This document shows, one piece after another, positions 1,463-36,826 of a stretch of 37,974 bases of DNA. Within the stretch, counting starts at the first letter, position 1. Every line of letters begins with the position of its first letter. The notes beneath the pieces were generated by a model. It was not told where the DNA came from, did no database searches, and saw only the letters and a program-made list of their open reading frames with translations. Where the stretch lies: IMG/VR virus record IMGVR_UViG_3300046492_000342, positions 1-37,974 of that record; one strand, given 5' to 3'. Made by a program: the position numbers and the translations under genes. This DNA is from a virus.

Positions 1463-1517
1463 GGCTTGGGGTCGGAAAAGATGCAATGCGGAAAATTCTA
1501 CACGGGATTGCCGCGTG

Positions 1518-1706
1518 TCAATGAATTTGTTGCGGTTCGGCCAGGCTGTTGTGGACGTAGGCGTCGCCATAGGCCCGCTGGCGCGTCGGGTTGCACGAGC
1601 ACCGCACCGTGGCCACGTGGGCGCGTGCGTCGGTCAGCGGGACGACGTGGAGCACCTCGTCCTGGTCGTCGTCCTCGAGGACGTTCCACAGCTGCAGCGT
1701 GCTCAT
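1518..1706 (-). CDS. Small Cys/His-motif phage protein (62 aa)
   Basis: A 62-residue protein whose ATG overlaps the terminase stop as ATGA, so translation is probably coupled to terminase. It contains VVPLTDARAHVATVRCSCNP followed by a conserved-looking H near the end (YVHNSLAE). The layout of an N/D-x-R-x-H segment, a CxC(N/H)P motif and a later H matches a small phage protein family that is widespread next to structural genes. The Cys and His residues suggest metal binding. I know of no assigned function. It lies between large terminase and portal, so it is expressed late and may act in packaging or head assembly. That role is inferred from position only. Confidence 0.75.
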   Translation of the reverse strand: MSTLQLWNVLEDDDQDEVLHVVPLTDARAHVATVRCSCNPTRQRAYGDAYVHNSLAEPQQIH

Positions 1707-3157
1707 AGGCCGATTCCAAAAAATGAAGTTGGCGCGACGTCCCCGCCGAGCGGGGCCGCCACGGGTTTGACGGTCGCGCGGTCCAGGCCCGAGGCCACCA
1801 GGTAGCGCGTGGCGTCCATGAGGTGATCGTTTGCCTTGACCACGTGGCCCTTGTCGTCGCGCCGATACATGCGGTACTCGGCCAGCCAGTTTTGGCAGGA
1901 CTTGAACACGCGCAGGCGCCCGCCGCTCATGCGCTCCCACGTGCGATGAATGCCGGTTTCGACGCCGTTGTCCGCGAGGCCCAGGTCGAGGCCCAGGTCC
2001 TTGTAGGCCTGGAGCAGCTGCGCGCCGTCCGTTTGCGTGCGCCCGCGGCTGGCCGGGTCGATAACGCCCGGGATCCACGGGCCGCGTGCGTTGATGCTCG
2101 TCACATGGACGGCCGGCTCGGCGTGGCCCTTGTAGTGCTCGGAATAGAGGTAGAGCGTTTGGTCCTCGCGGTCCAGCGCGCCCCAAATGCCGGCCGTGCG
2201 ATTCCATCCGACGTCCAGGCCGTAGGCGCGCGGCCAGTGGGCCGGGATCGTGAAATCCGGGACGACGATATCCGACTCGGGCACCGGGTAGATGGCGCCG
2301 GCGCCGAGCTGGGGCACGCCCTTGGAGCGCGCGTCCCGCTGGAATGGCGGAATGGCGGCGTACAGCTCCGCCTTGACCTTTTCGGACAGGTGGGGCACGT
2401 CGTCCCACGTGGCCATGACAACGAATTTCCCGGCCGCGGCGCCCTGCTCGAGCGAGCCCGAGGGCAGGAACGCCAGCACCACGGAGGACATGCCCATCAA
2501 CGGGGTGAACGTCAGCATCAACATGCCGTTGTTGGTCATGGTCCGGAGCAGGCACTCGGTGTAAATGTCGAGCGGGGGCTCCTCGTCCAGGAGGATGACG
2601 TCCACCTCCGTGCCCTGGAACGCCTCGCGGCGCTGGTCGTAGGACTTGAGCACCACCGTGGACGTGCCGCCGCTCACGTGGCGCACCGTGACGGTTTCCA
2701 CCGCATTGCCCACGCCTTGCTTGCTCGTGTAGCCGATGAGCGAGTCCCCCGGCAGCACGCCCGTGCCGAACGAGCCCCACATGCCCAGGAGCTTGGTTTG
2801 CAGAATGTCGCGCACGGTCTTGCCGGTGTCGCCGGCGGCCCACGCCATGATTGGCCGATTGAACCGGCGCCCGCCGATCGCGTCCCACCACTCCGGATAG
2901 AAGCCGGTCAGGTGGAGCACCAGCTCATAGACGCCCACGCCCTCCGTTTTGCCCACGCGGTTGGCGGCCAACATGAGGCGCTCGCGGTGGTCCTTGCCGG
3001 CGGCGAAAAACGCCATGTGCTTGGGGTACAGCTCGCGGCGCAGCGGGCCGGCGGGCGGGTAGTAGGTCCACAGCTTGCGGCGCTCGACGCGGCGGACTTG
3101 CTCCTCGAGGAGGGCCAGATAGGCCAATTTCTCCTGGTAGGTGTCCGGCGCGCTCAT
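1703..3157 (-). CDS. terL: Terminase large subunit (packaging ATPase/nuclease)
   Basis: This 484-residue protein is the motor that pumps DNA into the prohead and cuts the concatemer. The N-terminal ATPase shows a Walker A-like ANRVGKT at residues 65-71 and a Walker B ILLDEE at about 188-193. The C-terminal RNase H-like nuclease shows the expected acidic residues: D315 in YGLDVGW, D367 in VIDP, and D448 in HLMDATRY. The ATG at 3157 overlaps the stop of a 37-codon ORF, and the stop overlaps the next ATG, so the genes are tightly coupled. A frame extends further upstream (to 3367), but it runs through the end of the small-terminase gene and is rejected. The packaging type, headful or site-specific, cannot be told from sequence alone. 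Confidence 0.93.
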   Translation of the reverse strand: MSAPDTYQEKLAYLALLEEQVRRVERRKLWTYYPPAGPLRRELYPKHMAFFAAGKDHRERLMLAANRVGKTEGVGVYELVLHLTGFYPEWWDAIGGRRFNRPIMAWAAGDTGKTVRDILQTKLLGMWGSFGTGVLPGDSLIGYTSKQGVGNAVETVTVRHVSGGTSTVVLKSYDQRREAFQGTEVDVILLDEEPPLDIYTECLLRTMTNNGMLMLTFTPLMGMSSVVLAFLPSGSLEQGAAAGKFVVMATWDDVPHLSEKVKAELYAAIPPFQRDARSKGVPQLGAGAIYPVPESDIVVPDFTIPAHWPRAYGLDVGWNRTAGIWGALDREDQTLYLYSEHYKGHAEPAVHVTSINARGPWIPGVIDPASRGRTQTDGAQLLQAYKDLGLDLGLADNGVETGIHRTWERMSGGRLRVFKSCQNWLAEYRMYRRDDKGHVVKANDHLMDATRYLVASGLDRATVKPVAAPLGGDVAPTSFFGIGL

Positions 3158-3267
3158 GGACGCCACCAGCACACGGCCAGGACGCCCACGAGCAGCAGCG
3201 CGGCGGGGATGGCCACGCACTCGGCAACGAGGCGGCCCGTGCGCCAGGTGCGGCGCGGCGGGGTCAC
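3154..3267 (-). CDS. Single-span membrane micro-protein between the terminase genes (37 aa)
   Basis: A 37-codon frame starting with GTG at 3267 has a basic N-terminus (VTPPRRTWRTGR), then a hydrophobic stretch of about 18 residues (VAIPAALLLVGVLAVCWW), and ends RP. It would be an N-in, single-span inner-membrane peptide. Its GTG overlaps the small-terminase stop as GTGA, and its stop overlaps the large-terminase ATG as ATGA. It fills the space between the two terminase genes exactly, which argues that it is real rather than chance. It has no recognisable homology. Lysis-related or membrane-perturbing roles are possible but unsupported. No independent Shine-Dalgarno is needed if it is translated by coupling. 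Confidence 0.6.
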   Translation of the reverse strand: MTPPRRTWRTGRLVAECVAIPAALLLVGVLAVCWWRP

Positions 3268-4034
3268 TTGTCGCCCCCCGGCAGCACGCCGGCGGAGCGG
3301 AGCCGGTGCTCGGCCTGCGCGGTGCGGCGCGCGAGCTCGTCGTCGGGCAGCTGGCGCACGTCGTCAATGTGGAGTGTCTCTTTCGACACGCCCGTGTGCT
3401 TGGCGGCCAGGTCGAGCGCCTTGTCGCGGTCGCGCGCCTGAATCTCGATCCCGTTTTTCGTCACCTTGGCGCCGGCGTACTGGCGGCGGCCCGCGTCGGA
3501 CAGGAACCGGGTGTCCTTGGCCAGCACGACGGGGACGCCGCGGCCGAAACACTCCGGGCAATCCTCGTGCGGCGGCCGGCGCGGGTCGTAGCCGACATTG
3601 GCGCCGTGCTTTTCCAGGAACTTGAGGCCGAGCGGATCTTGCGCGCCGCCCTTGCGGGCCCGGTCGGCCTGGAGATACGCCTCGAGGGCGCGCTCGAACT
3701 CCGCCGGCGTGAACTGGTATTTGTGCCCGTCGCCATGGCAATGCCTGCACGAGTCGAGCACGTGCTCCACCAGCTCGTTGGCGTCGGCGCGCAGGCCGAG
3801 CACCACGTCCCGGAGCACGTCGTCGGCCGTGACGGTCAGGCGCTCCAAGCGGGCCGCCTTGCCCTTGTCGACGGCCTCGCGCACCTCGGGCACCTTCATG
3901 AGGTCGGACGCCCTGGACGCGGCCTGTTGTCGGTCCATGACGCCATAGGCGAGCATGTACGCCTCGGCCTGGTTGTAGGTCGGCATGGCCAGGAGGGCGG
4001 CCACGAATCGCTGGCGGTTGGAGTTGAGCGTCAT
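3264..4034 (-). CDS. terS: Terminase small subunit (DNA recognition)
   Basis: This 256-residue protein is the first gene of the late operon, directly upstream of large terminase. Small terminases bind the packaging site and hand DNA to the large subunit. The N-terminus (residues 5-50: NRQRFVAALLAMPTYNQAEA, then a second helix with RASDLMKVPEV) is the helix-turn-helix typical of the Terminase_2 type. A CRHCHGDGHKY motif (C96, C99) pairs with a later CPEC (C159, C162) to form a probable zinc site, a pattern known from phage small terminases of this class. The ATG at 4034 is chosen because the family motif starts a few residues later. The frame is open to 4187, but that extension lacks similarity. 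Confidence 0.85.
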   Translation of the reverse strand: MTLNSNRQRFVAALLAMPTYNQAEAYMLAYGVMDRQQAASRASDLMKVPEVREAVDKGKAARLERLTVTADDVLRDVVLGLRADANELVEHVLDSCRHCHGDGHKYQFTPAEFERALEAYLQADRARKGGAQDPLGLKFLEKHGANVGYDPRRPPHEDCPECFGRGVPVVLAKDTRFLSDAGRRQYAGAKVTKNGIEIQARDRDKALDLAAKHTGVSKETLHIDDVRQLPDDELARRTAQAEHRLRSAGVLPGGDK

Positions 4035-4487
4035 AATGCGCCCGAGGATACATGCACTTGGGAAAATATTCCAGTTCGGAAAAACTCCCTCACACGCTGG
4101 CCGGCGGCACGTTTCGGCCCGATCCACTCCGGAGCGATTCGGAGCGCCTGGATAACCACGCCCCGCGGTTGCCCGCAATGCCCGCAATCTACCCGCTAAC
4201 GTTCCGGGTGCGCTAAGTGCTTGATTGTTTAATCCTTTTCACCCTTTTACCCTTAATACCCTTTACTAATATATTGTAAGGTAGGGATATAAGAGGAAAG
4301 ATAAGGTAAATAATAGTATTAAACATAATCATATAGAAAGGTAAGAGAGGATATGAAACGGGGCTTGCGGGTGGGGTTTTTGGGTACGAATCGCCGTTTT
4401 ATAAGGCGTTTATATGATAGTATCTGCGCGTTCCCGCTCAAGCGGGAATCAAACGCCCCAACTTGCCCGCCCGAGGAGAAATCATAA
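4035..4487. promoter_or_regulatory. AT-rich divergent control region (late promoter and possible origin)
   Basis: This is the longest non-coding stretch of the genome, between the divergent small-terminase gene and the plus-strand gene at 4488. Bases 4225-4425 are strikingly AT-rich against GC-rich surroundings. Seen directly: ACCCTT repeated at 4241, 4249 and 4258, with a degenerate fourth copy at about 4232, and AAGGTA at 4278, 4303 and 4338 in the other orientation. At 4431-4448 there is an inverted repeat, TTCCCGCT-CA-AGCGGGAA. AGGAGA, about 10 bases before the ATG at 4488, is the ribosome site of that gene. The late promoter must lie here because the operon runs leftward from 4034, but no convincing -35/-10 pair could be fixed. 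An origin of replication is possible and unproven. Confidence 0.6.
4431..4448. repeat. 18-bp inverted repeat upstream of the 4488 gene
   Basis: TTCCCGCT and AGCGGGAA flank a CA centre, giving two 8-base arms. It lies about 40 bases before the start codon at 4488, so it could be an operator or a leader hairpin. There is no U-tract, so it is not an intrinsic terminator. Confidence 0.6.
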
Positions 4488-5021
4488 ATGGAAATCATCA
4501 CACGAAAACAGGCCACCGACGCCAAGCTCAATATCTATTACACGGGCAAACCGTGCCGGAATGGGCACGTGGCGGAGCGGTACACGACAAGCGGCGCGTG
4601 CAAGGGCTGTATTTCTGAGGCCGTGGCCGGGGTCCGCCGAGCGGTCGGCGGTAGCGCACGGAACACGCCGGAGCGCCAGGCGCAATTGGACGGGCTTGTT
4701 TCGGTGCGGCTCCGCGCCCACCCGGCGGACGAGGCCACGCTCCTGGACACGGCGGCGGCGGTCACGGTATCGCGGCGCCCGCTCCTCGTGGCCATGGACG
4801 TGGTGGGCACGCGCAAGGGCACCAAGCCGGAGGGCGGAACACTGTTGTATGTTGTCAACGTGGACCCGGCCGACGTCCAGGTCCTCCGGGATATGCAAAA
4901 CGCTATGCTCAAGGCCCGAGGGCCGGACATTCAAGCGGTGCGGGTGGCGGCGTTCGGGGGGAACATGGCCCAGGCCGAGGCGGCCCGGGACAATGGGGAG
5001 GGGGAGTGGCGCTTTACTTGA
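4488..5021 (+). CDS. Zinc-module protein resembling the N-terminus of phage HNH-associated proteins (177 aa)
   Basis: A 177-residue protein with a good Shine-Dalgarno (AGGAGA) and an isolated plus-strand position. Residues 17-41 carry YYTGKPCRNGHVAERY followed by GACKGC. This Cys-x2-GH...Cys-x2-Cys zinc module is common at the N-terminus of phage proteins annotated as HNH or restriction-type endonucleases. The rest (residues 60-177) has no HNH catalytic motif that I can see and is not recognised. It may bind DNA through the zinc module and act early or as a regulator. Its last 8 bases overlap the stop end of the convergent gene at 5014. A nuclease function should not be assumed. Confidence 0.7.
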   Translation: MEIITRKQATDAKLNIYYTGKPCRNGHVAERYTTSGACKGCISEAVAGVRRAVGGSARNTPERQAQLDGLVSVRLRAHPADEATLLDTAAAVTVSRRPLLVAMDVVGTRKGTKPEGGTLLYVVNVDPADVQVLRDMQNAMLKARGPDIQAVRVAAFGGNMAQAEAARDNGEGEWRFT

Positions 5022-22441: not shown

Positions 22442-22663
22442 ATGATGAGCAACACACTTTCGGCCTCGGATCGTTTCGAGCGGGCCCAGCGAATGGAACA
22501 AGCCGTCCGCCTGGCCACGCACCAGGACCCGGCCCAGCGCCGGAGCGCCTACGAGGCGGCCCGCCAATTCCGCGTTTCGCAATCGGCAATTAGCCAAAAC
22601 CGGGCCTATCGGGCCTGGAAAGATAGCCAAAATAAAGGAGATTCCCGCAATGCCAAAAATTAA
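22442..22663 (+). CDS. Small helix-turn-helix protein (73 aa)
   Basis: A 73-residue protein with an HTH at about residues 36-58 (YEAARQFRVSQSAISQNRAY), similar in pattern to homeodomain-like or transposase-type HTHs (AARxFxVSxSAIS). The N-terminus has ERAQRMEQAVRLATHQDPAQ. The remainder is short and basic. It is placed directly behind the strongest promoter, which contains an AT-rich palindrome, as expected of an autoregulated repressor (inferred). AGAAAGG provides the ribosome site. The second ATG (22445) is equally possible and fits the spacing slightly better. Confidence 0.75.
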   Translation: MMSNTLSASDRFERAQRMEQAVRLATHQDPAQRRSAYEAARQFRVSQSAISQNRAYRAWKDSQNKGDSRNAKN

Positions 22664-22805
22664 CCGCCTGGCCCACGTCCCCGTGCGCTCGCCATATCAG
22701 GATTGGGTGGCCACGCAGCGCCGCATGGTGGTGCTCGAGCGCGTCGGGAAATTCGCCGTGGCCCTGGTCGTCGTGCTGGCCGCCGTGGGGTACTTCGGAA
22801 AATGA
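22650..22805 (+). CDS. Single-span membrane micro-protein (51 aa)
   Basis: A 51-codon frame with GGAG 11-14 bases before the ATG. It starts MPKINRLAHVPVRSPYQDWV, has a basic middle (TQRRMVVLERVGK), and ends with a hydrophobic span FAVALVVVLAAVGYFGK. This predicts one transmembrane helix at the C-terminus. It overlaps the end of the HTH gene by 14 bases, and its stop overlaps the next ATG (ATGA). Overlaps on both sides support it as real. No homology was recognised. A membrane-associated early role is conceivable. Confidence 0.65.
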   Translation: MPKINRLAHVPVRSPYQDWVATQRRMVVLERVGKFAVALVVVLAAVGYFGK

Positions 22806-22987
22806 GCCGTAATCCGACGCCGGCGCAGCTGGCCGCCGCCCTCCACGCTCACGACGAGGTGCTCGGCCTGAATCGTGAGCCGAACTACAAACAGAAAGCG
22901 CGGGCCATGCTGGCGGCCCTGCGCGCCGCGGCGGACCTACCGAACGGAGGCGCCCATGACGTGCAGCGCGACGCAGCAAGGGGATGA
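22802..22987 (+). CDS. Small helical hypothetical protein (61 aa)
   Basis: A 61-residue protein, MSRNPTPAQLAAALHAHDEV then KARAMLAALRAAADL, all-helical in prediction. Its ATG overlaps the upstream stop by four bases. The C-terminus (HDVQRDAARG) overlaps the start of the next gene in another frame. No function was recognised. Confidence 0.6.
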   Translation: MSRNPTPAQLAAALHAHDEVLGLNREPNYKQKARAMLAALRAAADLPNGGAHDVQRDAARG

Positions 22988-23342
22988 GATGGCGTGCGGC
23001 CGGTGCGCGCTCCGGTGGGACGTGAACGACGCGAACCCGCCCGCGTGCCTGCAGCACGAGCGCCGAACCCGCCCGCGTGGGCAAGGCCTCCCGCCGGTGC
23101 CGGTCCAGCCGTTGGCCGGGCCCGAGCCGCGGCCCGAGCACGTAACCCGCCGCCAGGTGGCGGAGGGCGTCGATTACCGGGCCTTGCTGGTCAAGTACAT
23201 GCGCCACGTGGGCGAGGAGGAGGGCACCACTTACGTGGCGCGGATCGGCACCGGCGGGCGCGGCTATTTCTCGGGCGTGACGTTTTCGGCGCCGGAGCTG
23301 GCGGCGTTGCTGGTGTGTGACGGGGAATCCGCCGCCGGTTGA
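22956..23342 (+). CDS. Zinc-ribbon protein with an LLxKYxxHVG motif (128 aa)
   Basis: A 128-residue protein. The N-terminus has C14-x2-C17 (MACGRCALRWDV) and a further Cys (PPACLQH), a probable zinc site. The C-terminal part (ALLVKYMRHVGEEEGTTYVA, then FSAPELAALLVC) is the same motif as in the 5759-6046 product. GGAGG lies five bases before the ATG at 22956. A second start at 22989, one base after the upstream stop, has a weaker AAGGGG and would give 117 residues. It is the last gene of the plus-strand unit and overlaps the end of the convergent Rz gene by 79 bases. Confidence 0.7.
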   Translation: MTCSATQQGDEMACGRCALRWDVNDANPPACLQHERRTRPRGQGLPPVPVQPLAGPEPRPEHVTRRQVAEGVDYRALLVKYMRHVGEEEGTTYVARIGTGGRGYFSGVTFSAPELAALLVCDGESAAG

Positions 23343-23830
23343 GGGGGCGCCATGCCGTTGGCCACGGCCCAGGCCTGGCACGCTCGGCCAGCGCCGAACG
23401 CCTCCTCGACGGCCAGTTTTAACGCTCTAATATCTCGGTCAACGTCCGATCGAACCACCCGGCCGGGGGGATCGGCGCCATTGCCGCCTTGGGCGCTTGG
23501 GGCTTCGGGGGCGGGGGCAGATCCACCACAGAGGGCGGGGCCGACGCGCACGCCTGGAGCAGCAGCAATGCGAGCACGGACAGGGGCCAATTCTTCATTT
23601 TTTGCCTCGGTAATCGTCAGGTTGATGGATTGCTGTTTCGTGGCCTCGACGGCGTTCTCCCGGATCCGGCCCACCGTGGCCACGAGGTCCCGGCCGCGCT
23701 GCTCCGCCTCCGCCGCGGCGTGGCCGGCGTCGAATTGGTGGGCGCCGTACCACCGCACGCCGAGCGTGCCGGCGACGGCCAGCACCACCAGCGCCAGCAC
23801 CGCGACGAGGAACCGCTCGAGCGAGCTCAT
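23264..23830 (-). CDS. Rz-type i-spanin (188 aa)
   Basis: Spanins disrupt the outer membrane in the last step of lysis. This 188-residue protein has an N-terminal inner-membrane anchor (ERFLVAVLALVVLAVAGTLG, about residues 4-23) followed by a charged, helical periplasmic region (AAAEAEQRGRDLVATVGRIR...) and a Pro/Gly-rich part. Its start overlaps the endolysin stop (ATGA). An Rz1-type lipoprotein is embedded in another frame, the classical arrangement. The last third, after about residue 140, is unusually long and overlaps the convergent plus-strand gene. Confidence 0.85.
   Translation of the reverse strand: MSSLERFLVAVLALVVLAVAGTLGVRWYGAHQFDAGHAAAEAEQRGRDLVATVGRIRENAVEATKQQSINLTITEAKNEELAPVRARIAAAPGVRVGPALCGGSAPAPEAPSAQGGNGADPPGRVVRSDVDRDIRALKLAVEEAFGAGRACQAWAVANGMAPPQPAADSPSHTSNAASSGAENVTPEK
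23419..23598 (-). CDS. Rz1-type outer-membrane lipoprotein, embedded in Rz (59 aa)
   Basis: A 59-residue frame inside the Rz gene. It starts MKNWPLSVLALLLLQACASA: a basic start, hydrophobic signal and lipobox LLQAC with Cys16 or Cys17 as the lipid-bearing residue. The mature part is Pro-rich (VVDLPPPPKPQAPKA, APIPPAGWFD), as in Rz1 o-spanins. Nested genes of this kind are a hallmark of Rz/Rz1 pairs. The two proteins would meet across the periplasm. It is too short for ordinary gene calling but well supported by composition and context. Confidence 0.88.
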   Translation of the reverse strand: MKNWPLSVLALLLLQACASAPPSVVDLPPPPKPQAPKAAMAPIPPAGWFDRTLTEILER

Positions 23831-24300
23831 GCGGCCACCTTGGGGGCCGGGTCGAACCGCTGGAGGTTCCGCCCCTTCATGACGGCCACCAGCTTGACGG
23901 CGTAGTCCGGGTCCGTCGCATAGCCCGCCTTGGCCACGGCGCACGCCCAGCCGGCGCCCGTCGTTTCGTGAAAACAGGCCGCATAGCGCGGGTTATCGTG
24001 GAAAAAGTCCGCGTGATCCGCCATGCACTCGGCCCAGCTCGCGTATTTGCGCCAGGTCGCCGGCACCACCACTTTTTTGCCGTTGAACACCTCGCCGGTA
24101 CGCATGGCCAGGGTGGGCCCGTGCCAGGACTTGTCCGCCTTGACGCCGAACAGATTACATGCCCGGCTCACGAGGTCCGAGTCGCCCCACCGGGATTCGA
24201 GCGCCGCTTGTGCCAGCGTGAACGAGGCCGGGATCCCGTGGACGCGTTGGCATTCCAGCGCGGCCGGGAGGAGCATGTCAAGGAATGCGGAGGGCGGCAT
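23827..24300 (-). CDS. Endolysin, glucosaminidase family (157 aa)
   Basis: A 157-residue single-domain muralytic enzyme of the mannosyl-glycoprotein endo-beta-N-acetylglucosaminidase / FlgJ type. Seen: FTLAQAALESRWG with the catalytic E35, ACNLFGVKAD (the NLFGIK motif) and a conserved-looking WRKYASWAECMADHADFF. It would cut the peptidoglycan glycan strand. No signal peptide was seen, so it depends on the holin encoded directly upstream (no gap). Its stop overlaps the Rz start. Confidence 0.9.
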   Translation of the reverse strand: MPPSAFLDMLLPAALECQRVHGIPASFTLAQAALESRWGDSDLVSRACNLFGVKADKSWHGPTLAMRTGEVFNGKKVVVPATWRKYASWAECMADHADFFHDNPRYAACFHETTGAGWACAVAKAGYATDPDYAVKLVAVMKGRNLQRFDPAPKVAA

Positions 24301-24681
24301 TTAGAGCACCTTTTTGGCGTCTTGGGCGAGCTCGAGGAGGTCGTCGTCCTTGTGCTTGTCCAGGTACTTGAAAAGGGCGCGCACGATTGCCCACGCCGGG
24401 AGGCCGCACGAAAAGCACAGCGCGAGCATGGCGATAATCCCGAACACGTCGTCCGCCCAATGCTGGAGGCCGAGATAGCGCACCAGGCAGGCGCCGCCGC
24501 CGATGGAGCCCACCAGCGTGGAAATGAGCGCGACGCGCCATTCCTGGTCCGTTTTAGGCTTGGTCATGCTCATGACGACAAACGCCGCCAGGCCTGCGCC
24601 GATGCCGCCCATTCCAGCCAGGCCGCCCAAGGCTTTCCAGCCGAGGACGCCGGCCGCCGTGCCGGAAATTGGTTCGCTCAT
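24301..24681 (-). CDS. Putative holin (126 aa, about three membrane spans)
   Basis: A 126-residue protein with hydrophobic segments at about residues 22-38 (GGIGAGLAAFVVMSM), 50-70 (VALISTLVGSIGGGACLV) and 78-102 (DDVFGIIAMLALCFSCGLPA), and a charged C-terminus (FKYLDKHKDDDLLELAQDAK). This is the layout of class I-like holins. It lies directly before the endolysin. The start at 24681 is chosen because a GAGAG sequence lies upstream and the longer frame to 24699 lacks a ribosome site. Confidence 0.8.
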   Translation of the reverse strand: MSEPISGTAAGVLGWKALGGLAGMGGIGAGLAAFVVMSMTKPKTDQEWRVALISTLVGSIGGGACLVRYLGLQHWADDVFGIIAMLALCFSCGLPAWAIVRALFKYLDKHKDDDLLELAQDAKKVL

Positions 24682-24717
24682 TTCTTGGACTCTCATCATT
24701 TTTAAAGTGCTAGTTAG

Positions 24718-35962: not shown

Positions 35963-36784
35963 TTAAGAGAACCCGAGCACGCGGGCGCGTTCTTTTGCGA
36001 AATCCTCGCGGCTCATGGTTGCGTAACGTTGTGCCTGGTCGACGGGCGGGGCTTGGCGGGACGCTCCGCCCCCCGGCACCGTCATGGCGGTTTGTTTCTG
36101 TTTGCGTTGCGCGTGGTCGCGCGCGGCAGCTTCACGGGCAGCGATGGCCACGCGGGCCCGCTCGTGCTCGATCTGCAGCGCGCTCAACTCGCGGATTGCG
36201 ACAAGCGGGTCGTTCCACGCCGCGCCCAGCTCCTTGGCCTTGGCGGTTGCCTTGGCGGTCAGGTCCGGGTTTTGCTCGAGCAGGGCGTCCAGGCCCGGCA
36301 GCGCGGTTCCCACGGCCTCGGCCCAGGCGTCCGGGTCGTGTGCGGGCTTTCCAGCGGCCGGAGCACCCGTCACGTAGCGGACAGCCTCCTCGAGGCCCGG
36401 ATTGTCGTCCAGGACTTGGGGGCGGTTCGCTGCGCGGTCGCGTGCCTCCTGCTCTTGCTTGAGGCGTTTCACCTCGGCGGCGCTACGGCTGGCCCATCCC
36501 TTGGTGTCGTTGAGCGCCTTTTTCGTGCTTTCGAGCTCGCGCTCCAGCGTGGCGAGGCGTTCATCGGCGGTCGGGGTCTTGGCGGCGGGTGCCGGGTCGC
36601 CGTTGGCGTCCGGGTTTGCCGCTGGGGCCGGTTCGGCGTGGACGGCCGGCTCGTCGGTCGAGGTAGTCGTCGCGGCGCCTTGTGCGGTTGCACCCGATGC
36701 GGCGGCGGCCTCGGCGTCGAGGCGGGCCATTTCGGCCTGGTAAATCTCGTCGTAGCTTTGTGCGCCTTGGTTTTCGGTCGACAT
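35963..36784 (-). CDS. Scaffolding protein (273 aa)
   Basis: A 273-residue, highly charged helical protein: acidic and Ala-rich N-terminus, a coiled-coil stretch (ERLATLERELESTKKALNDT), and a basic C-terminal part (RDHAQRKQKQ, then DFAKERARVLGFS). This composition and its place directly before the capsid gene identify the scaffold, which guides prohead assembly and then leaves. GGAGA gives the ribosome site. Confidence 0.82.
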   Translation of the reverse strand: MSTENQGAQSYDEIYQAEMARLDAEAAAASGATAQGAATTTSTDEPAVHAEPAPAANPDANGDPAPAAKTPTADERLATLERELESTKKALNDTKGWASRSAAEVKRLKQEQEARDRAANRPQVLDDNPGLEEAVRYVTGAPAAGKPAHDPDAWAEAVGTALPGLDALLEQNPDLTAKATAKAKELGAAWNDPLVAIRELSALQIEHERARVAIAAREAAARDHAQRKQKQTAMTVPGGGASRQAPPVDQAQRYATMSREDFAKERARVLGFS

Positions 36785-36826
36785 ACTTTCACTTCTCCAT
36801 TGGGCCGGGTTGCCCCGGTAATCCGG

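Follow-up and report, generated by a model that had tools for sequence, protein, structure and literature searches.

A very short gene between the terminase genes of a phage probably encodes an accessory membrane peptide

In the 37,974-base virus record analysed here (the window), the genes for the small and large terminase subunits, terS and terL, are separated by a gap that is filled by an open reading frame of 37 codons. Is this frame a real gene, and what would the membrane peptide it appears to encode do in a packaging operon? The preliminary description, made from the DNA letters, held that the frame is a real gene and that a membrane peptide has no obvious reason to be there. We find this interpretation partly supported. 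The features concerned are the following:

3154..3267, minus strand: 37-codon gap gene between terS and terL, predicted to encode a single-span, tail-anchored membrane peptide
3163..3225, minus strand: hydrophobic helix region of the gap peptide, AECVAIPAALLLVGVLAVCWW, whose character is shared by four phages
3264..4034, minus strand: terS, terminase small subunit (Pfam Terminase_2, 2e-14; phrog_51, 1e-20)
1703..3157, minus strand: terL, terminase large subunit (Pfam Terminase_6N, 1e-19; phrog_2, 3e-27)

The frame and its overlaps with both neighbours were confirmed as described. The GTG start codon (3267-3265) overlaps the terS stop codon TGA (3266-3264) in the junction GTGA, and the stop codon TGA (3156-3154) overlaps the terL ATG (3157-3155) in the junction ATGA. 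A G-rich stretch, GGGGGGCGACAA, lies immediately 5' of the GTG, and TGGTGGCGTCC immediately 5' of the terL ATG; both are candidate ribosome-binding sites. No minus-strand terminator-like site was found in 1500-4600, which is consistent with a single operon, and folding of the gap revealed no unusual RNA structure (z-score -0.6). A TerL start further upstream, inside the gap, was considered but is not favoured: a comparison of two relatives, L001 and L002, reveals no coding signal in the frame concerned. The region 4200-4450, between terS and a divergent gene at 4488, is an AT-rich stretch amid GC-rich DNA; across its two strands it contains 3 promoter-like matches, against 0.6 expected.

The translation of the gap gene, MTPPRRTWRTGRLVAECVAIPAALLLVGVLAVCWWRP, has a basic N-terminus followed by a single hydrophobic helix, as judged by hydropathy. 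The Kyte-Doolittle peak is 2.46 over a 19-residue span; at least 2.45 over 19 residues is reached by 5 of the 9,189 stop-free 37-residue stretches in the six frames of the whole window. GC content at the three codon positions is 0.74/0.66/0.89, with a high third position that is likewise seen in TerS and TerL. The basic N-terminus, together with the fact that almost nothing follows the helix, makes an N-in topology with a C-terminal anchor likely.

Searching IMG/VR with TerL yielded 80 loci, 5 of which carry the same kind of TerS. Each of the three closest relatives found in IMG/VR (L001, L002 and L003; TerL 88-89% identical) has a homologue of the gap gene at the corresponding place, which is more than would be expected by chance. 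In L003 it again comprises 37 codons, MSRAPIRRGTSRLIAECVAIPAVALVLAVSAVCWWCP. The version in L001 and L002 is 77 codons long, with ∼40 additional residues between the start and a TWSTGR stretch, so that size differences among the versions are multiples of three. All homologues start by overlapping the terS stop codon in GTGA or ATGA and end by overlapping the terL ATG, the L003 junction being TAATG. The basic N-terminus and the C-terminal hydrophobic helix, a pattern already pointed out from the window, are kept in all four phages, and third-position GC of the gene is 0.88-0.95 throughout. AlphaFold2 models the 77-residue version, based on the four sequences, with a mean pLDDT of 77 and a pTM of 0.49. 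The predicted helices span residues 7-25, 29-45 and 48-75, where the extra N-terminal part forms a helical hairpin and the membrane segment falls within 48-75.

Beyond these relatives the gene is lost from view. In L004 (TerL 82% identical) it is absent, and terS and terL overlap directly via ATGA. In L005 (TerL 76%) the gap holds a 34-codon hydrophobic frame, MTAGARLLAVVGICCALTPAWPLALVCAALAFGR (2897-3001, plus strand), with ATGA at both ends and no detectable similarity to the window's peptide. Thus, when losing the frame or its hydrophobic segment in close relatives was taken as grounds for rejecting the gene, the three closest relatives upheld it, whereas of the next two, L004 has no such gene and L005 a different hydrophobic frame. 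Since the gene is missing from L004 and the frame in the gap of L005 looks unrelated, we regard it as dispensable and most likely accessory. Among the matches listed for more distant relatives, the frame preceding terL frequently extends into terL and leaves no comparable gap, and TerS relatives at ∼40% identity have no hydrophobic frame there. An alignment-based scan of IMG/VR recovered no homologue past the three known contigs; a DNA-pattern scan added loci, in which tblastn found no convincing match. Likewise, the 77-residue version had no tblastn match in 50,697 phage records, and neither the gap peptide nor its homologues had a credible match in PHROGs, Pfam or NCBIfam. The gap gene is a new small orphan gene.

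Whether it is under selection as a protein was addressed with pairwise comparisons, which draw on the four known sequences and give individually modest P values. Between L001 and L002, the full 77 codons have a pN/pS of 0.49 in frame (Fisher p=0.013), whereas the two alternative frames give 1.28 and 1.41 (p=0.81 and 0.88), which shows frame-specific purifying selection on the long version. The N-terminal part yields 0.27 (p=0.009). For the hydrophobic part alone, the ratio is 0.74 and not significantly different from 1 (p=0.27), so hydropathy is the sole indication of peptide-level selection there. Its pairwise dN/dS ranges from 0.53 to 1.34, compared with 0.13-0.27 for TerL and 0.19-0.32 for TerS in the same four phages; the gap gene is evolving much faster than its neighbours. 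Most changes in the peptide exchange one hydrophobic residue for another. When neutral drift was simulated with about as many substitutions, 0.4-5% of the stop-free outcomes retained a hydropathy as high as observed, and the helix thus seems to be constrained in character, not in residue sequence. For the checks proposed earlier, a conserved frame at the same place and a comparison of synonymous and non-synonymous change, the outcome is as follows: the frame is conserved at the same place in three relatives and its substitution pattern is of the coding type, significantly so for the 77-codon version overall but not for the helix alone. With frame and helix intact in three relatives and purifying selection on the longer version, the claim of a real gene stands as probably correct.

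Two readings would deprive the peptide of a role. The frame could be a chance product of GC-rich DNA, in which many frames are open and ∼62-66% of such frames stay stop-free under simulated drift. Given that both place and character are conserved in four phages and that the long version has frame-specific codon statistics, we consider this very improbable. The more serious proposal is that the frame mainly bridges translation from terS to terL, while the peptide itself does little. The start and stop overlaps at both ends would fit such a bridge, as would the fast residue change (dN/dS up to 1.3). In addition, the terminal Trp-Trp codons (TGGTGG) in the window and in L003 provide GGTGG, a possible ribosome-binding site for terL. 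However, L004 couples terS and terL directly without any gap gene, and a bridge predicts neither the retained hydrophobicity of the helix (P 0.004-0.05 under drift) nor the purifying selection on the N-terminal domain of the longer version. A pure bridge is therefore unlikely.

We favour the reading that the frame is a genuine gene with an accessory role in the late packaging operon, encoding a re-initiation-coupled, dispensable inner-membrane peptide, and assign this a probability of roughly 0.65. Ribosomes finishing terS would re-start at the overlapping GTG, make the peptide, and re-start again at the terL ATG; judging from the overlaps, the peptide would be produced together with the terminase. 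Its basic N-terminus would stay in the cytoplasm and the C-terminal helix would anchor it in the inner membrane, leaving a few residues outside. As hydrophobicity is retained while residues are not, and the gene can be absent, the peptide probably acts by membrane insertion or by loose helix-helix contact. The gap gene adds an evolutionarily supported case of a very short membrane gene inside an operon that ranks among the most conserved in tailed phages, and the GenBank phages searched contain no more than distant relatives of this phage group. By itself, a dispensable single-helix peptide would be a modest finding.

The product of T7 gene 19.5 is a membrane protein. This short gene, annotated as a hypothetical protein, adjoins terL as the gap gene does, a likeness by annotation only; it follows terL and does not lie between the terminase genes. 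A closer parallel in position is provided by the Rz-like spanin genes 18.5/18.7 of T7, which are situated between gene 18 (terS) and gene 19 (terL) (PMC4283147, PMC3276506). In the T7 annotation, the small terminase gene occupies 36553-36822 and the large one 37370-39130, with the spanin genes in between, and gene 18.5 of Yersinia phage AP5 is likewise placed between the terminase genes (PMC4283147). Small late membrane genes are therefore known to occur between terS and terL, and the statement that a membrane peptide has no obvious reason to be there was too strong, although the phage studied here has separate lysis genes:

24301..24699, minus strand: probable holin (phrog_198 holin, 0.003, weak; phrog_1024, 9e-41)
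23827..24300, minus strand: endolysin, a glucosaminidase (glucosaminidase, 2.9e-33; phrog_3513, 1.7e-49)
23264..23944, minus strand: probable i-spanin frame with a nested o-spanin candidate at 23419-23598 (weak Rz-like matches)

Given its T7-like position, could the gap peptide itself be a spanin, or serve as the main holin? The place is exactly that of the T7 spanin genes, but those encode proteins of 83-143 residues, whereas the gap peptide is a 37-residue single helix and spanin candidates lie elsewhere in the window. An o-spanin would carry a lipobox cysteine ([GAS]C); in the gap peptide the sequence reads LAVC, lacking G, A or S before the cysteine, and four residues follow it. An i-spanin would have an N-terminal anchor and a long periplasmic domain, whereas here the anchor is C-terminal and no periplasmic domain is present. 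Holins are classified by their number of membrane helices (two in class II, one in class III); the gap peptide has a single helix and no match to a holin family. Separate lysis genes are also found outside the window. L003's genome, in which the gap gene is present, contains a holin (Phage_holin_3_3, 7.8e-17), an endolysin 92% identical to that of the window and a spanin match, and L004's genome, without the gap gene, encodes an endolysin 63% identical, adjoined by holin-like and lipoprotein frames. In the window's nested spanin pair, the Rz-like matches are weak for the small frame and weaker still for the large one. Taken together, a spanin or main holin is very unlikely. The probable holin of the window (24301-24699, minus strand) and its counterpart in L003's genome (L161, 910-1272, minus strand) belong to different families although the endolysins beside them are 92% identical, which points to a swapped holin.

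The lysis protein L of phage MS2 is a single-span, tail-anchored protein with a basic, dispensable N-terminal part, a C-terminal membrane helix and a Leu-Ser motif. The gap peptide shares the basic N-terminal part and the C-terminal membrane helix, but the Leu-Ser dipeptide is absent from all four homologues and this phage already has an endolysin. For the favoured accessory peptide, late position and topology would allow an auxiliary role in which it tunes the timing of lysis alongside the separate holin, a tentative proposal but the likeliest of the functions considered. Alternatively, it may exclude other phages or act as the partner of a helical-hairpin protein. As a short frame for a predicted transmembrane small protein, it resembles, in kind only, the entries of GMSC-type small-ORF catalogues (PMC11364881).

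The idea of a hairpin partner stems from the extra N-terminal domain of the 77-codon version and from a second pair of tiny genes in the window:

22650..22805, plus strand: 51-codon gene for a second tiny, tail-anchored membrane peptide (predicted), conserved in two relatives and possibly linked to the gap gene
22802..22987, plus strand: 61-codon gene for a predicted helical-hairpin protein, overlapping the 51-codon gene in ATGA and resembling the N-terminal domain that the gap peptide carries as a fusion in L001 and L002

The pair follows the DNA polymerase gene and is present in the L003 and L004 records as well as in the window; it has no match in PHROGs. Searched against L003's genome, the N-terminal domain gives a weak match (E 0.003 with the gap family, 0.002 for the domain by itself) to a 63-residue protein, whose gene directly follows that of a further tiny, tail-anchored membrane peptide. 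The similarity runs from start to start, ungapped over ∼43 residues, with an hhalign probability of 71% and an E of 3.8e-5 for this single comparison. None of 5,000 shuffles scored as well as the best pair, the N-terminal domain and the L003 hairpin; for the 61-residue copy of the window, P was 0.006-0.02. In 50,697 phage records, tblastn gave no match to the hairpin protein.

This resemblance is suggestive, though no proof, of a joint function of membrane peptide and hairpin, which would have become fused between terS and terL in L001 and L002. The phage group would then carry a new two-part accessory module twice: one copy would be the two overlapping genes that follow the DNA polymerase gene (22650-22987 in the window), and the other would lie between terS and terL, fused in L001 and L002 and present as just its membrane half in the window and L003. 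It would constitute an undescribed membrane module. The preservation of the pair in three records and its order, with the hairpin of 61-63 residues right after a tail-anchored peptide, are in line with this idea. Against it, the similarity is weak and covers a helical stretch of ∼45 residues rich in Ala, the shuffle test gave no significance for the L004 copy, the membrane helices of the gap peptide and the 51-codon peptide have no detectable relationship, and the L001 and L002 records are incomplete. We thus regard the module as doubtful, in its functional as in its evolutionary part.

The first helix of the N-terminal domain (L001, 849-935; L002, 2768-2854) also weakly resembled the first helix of 2-hydroxymuconate tautomerase (NF002571; E 1e-4; 22 bits, where the cut-off is 55), which is probably a mere likeness between helices. 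The 51-/61-codon pair is followed and overlapped by a gene for a conserved small protein (22875-23342, plus strand) with the cysteine-containing motif QQGDEMACGRCxLRWxVxDxNPPxCLQHERR, counterparts of which are found at L168 1589-2062 and L164 982-1341 (minus strand).
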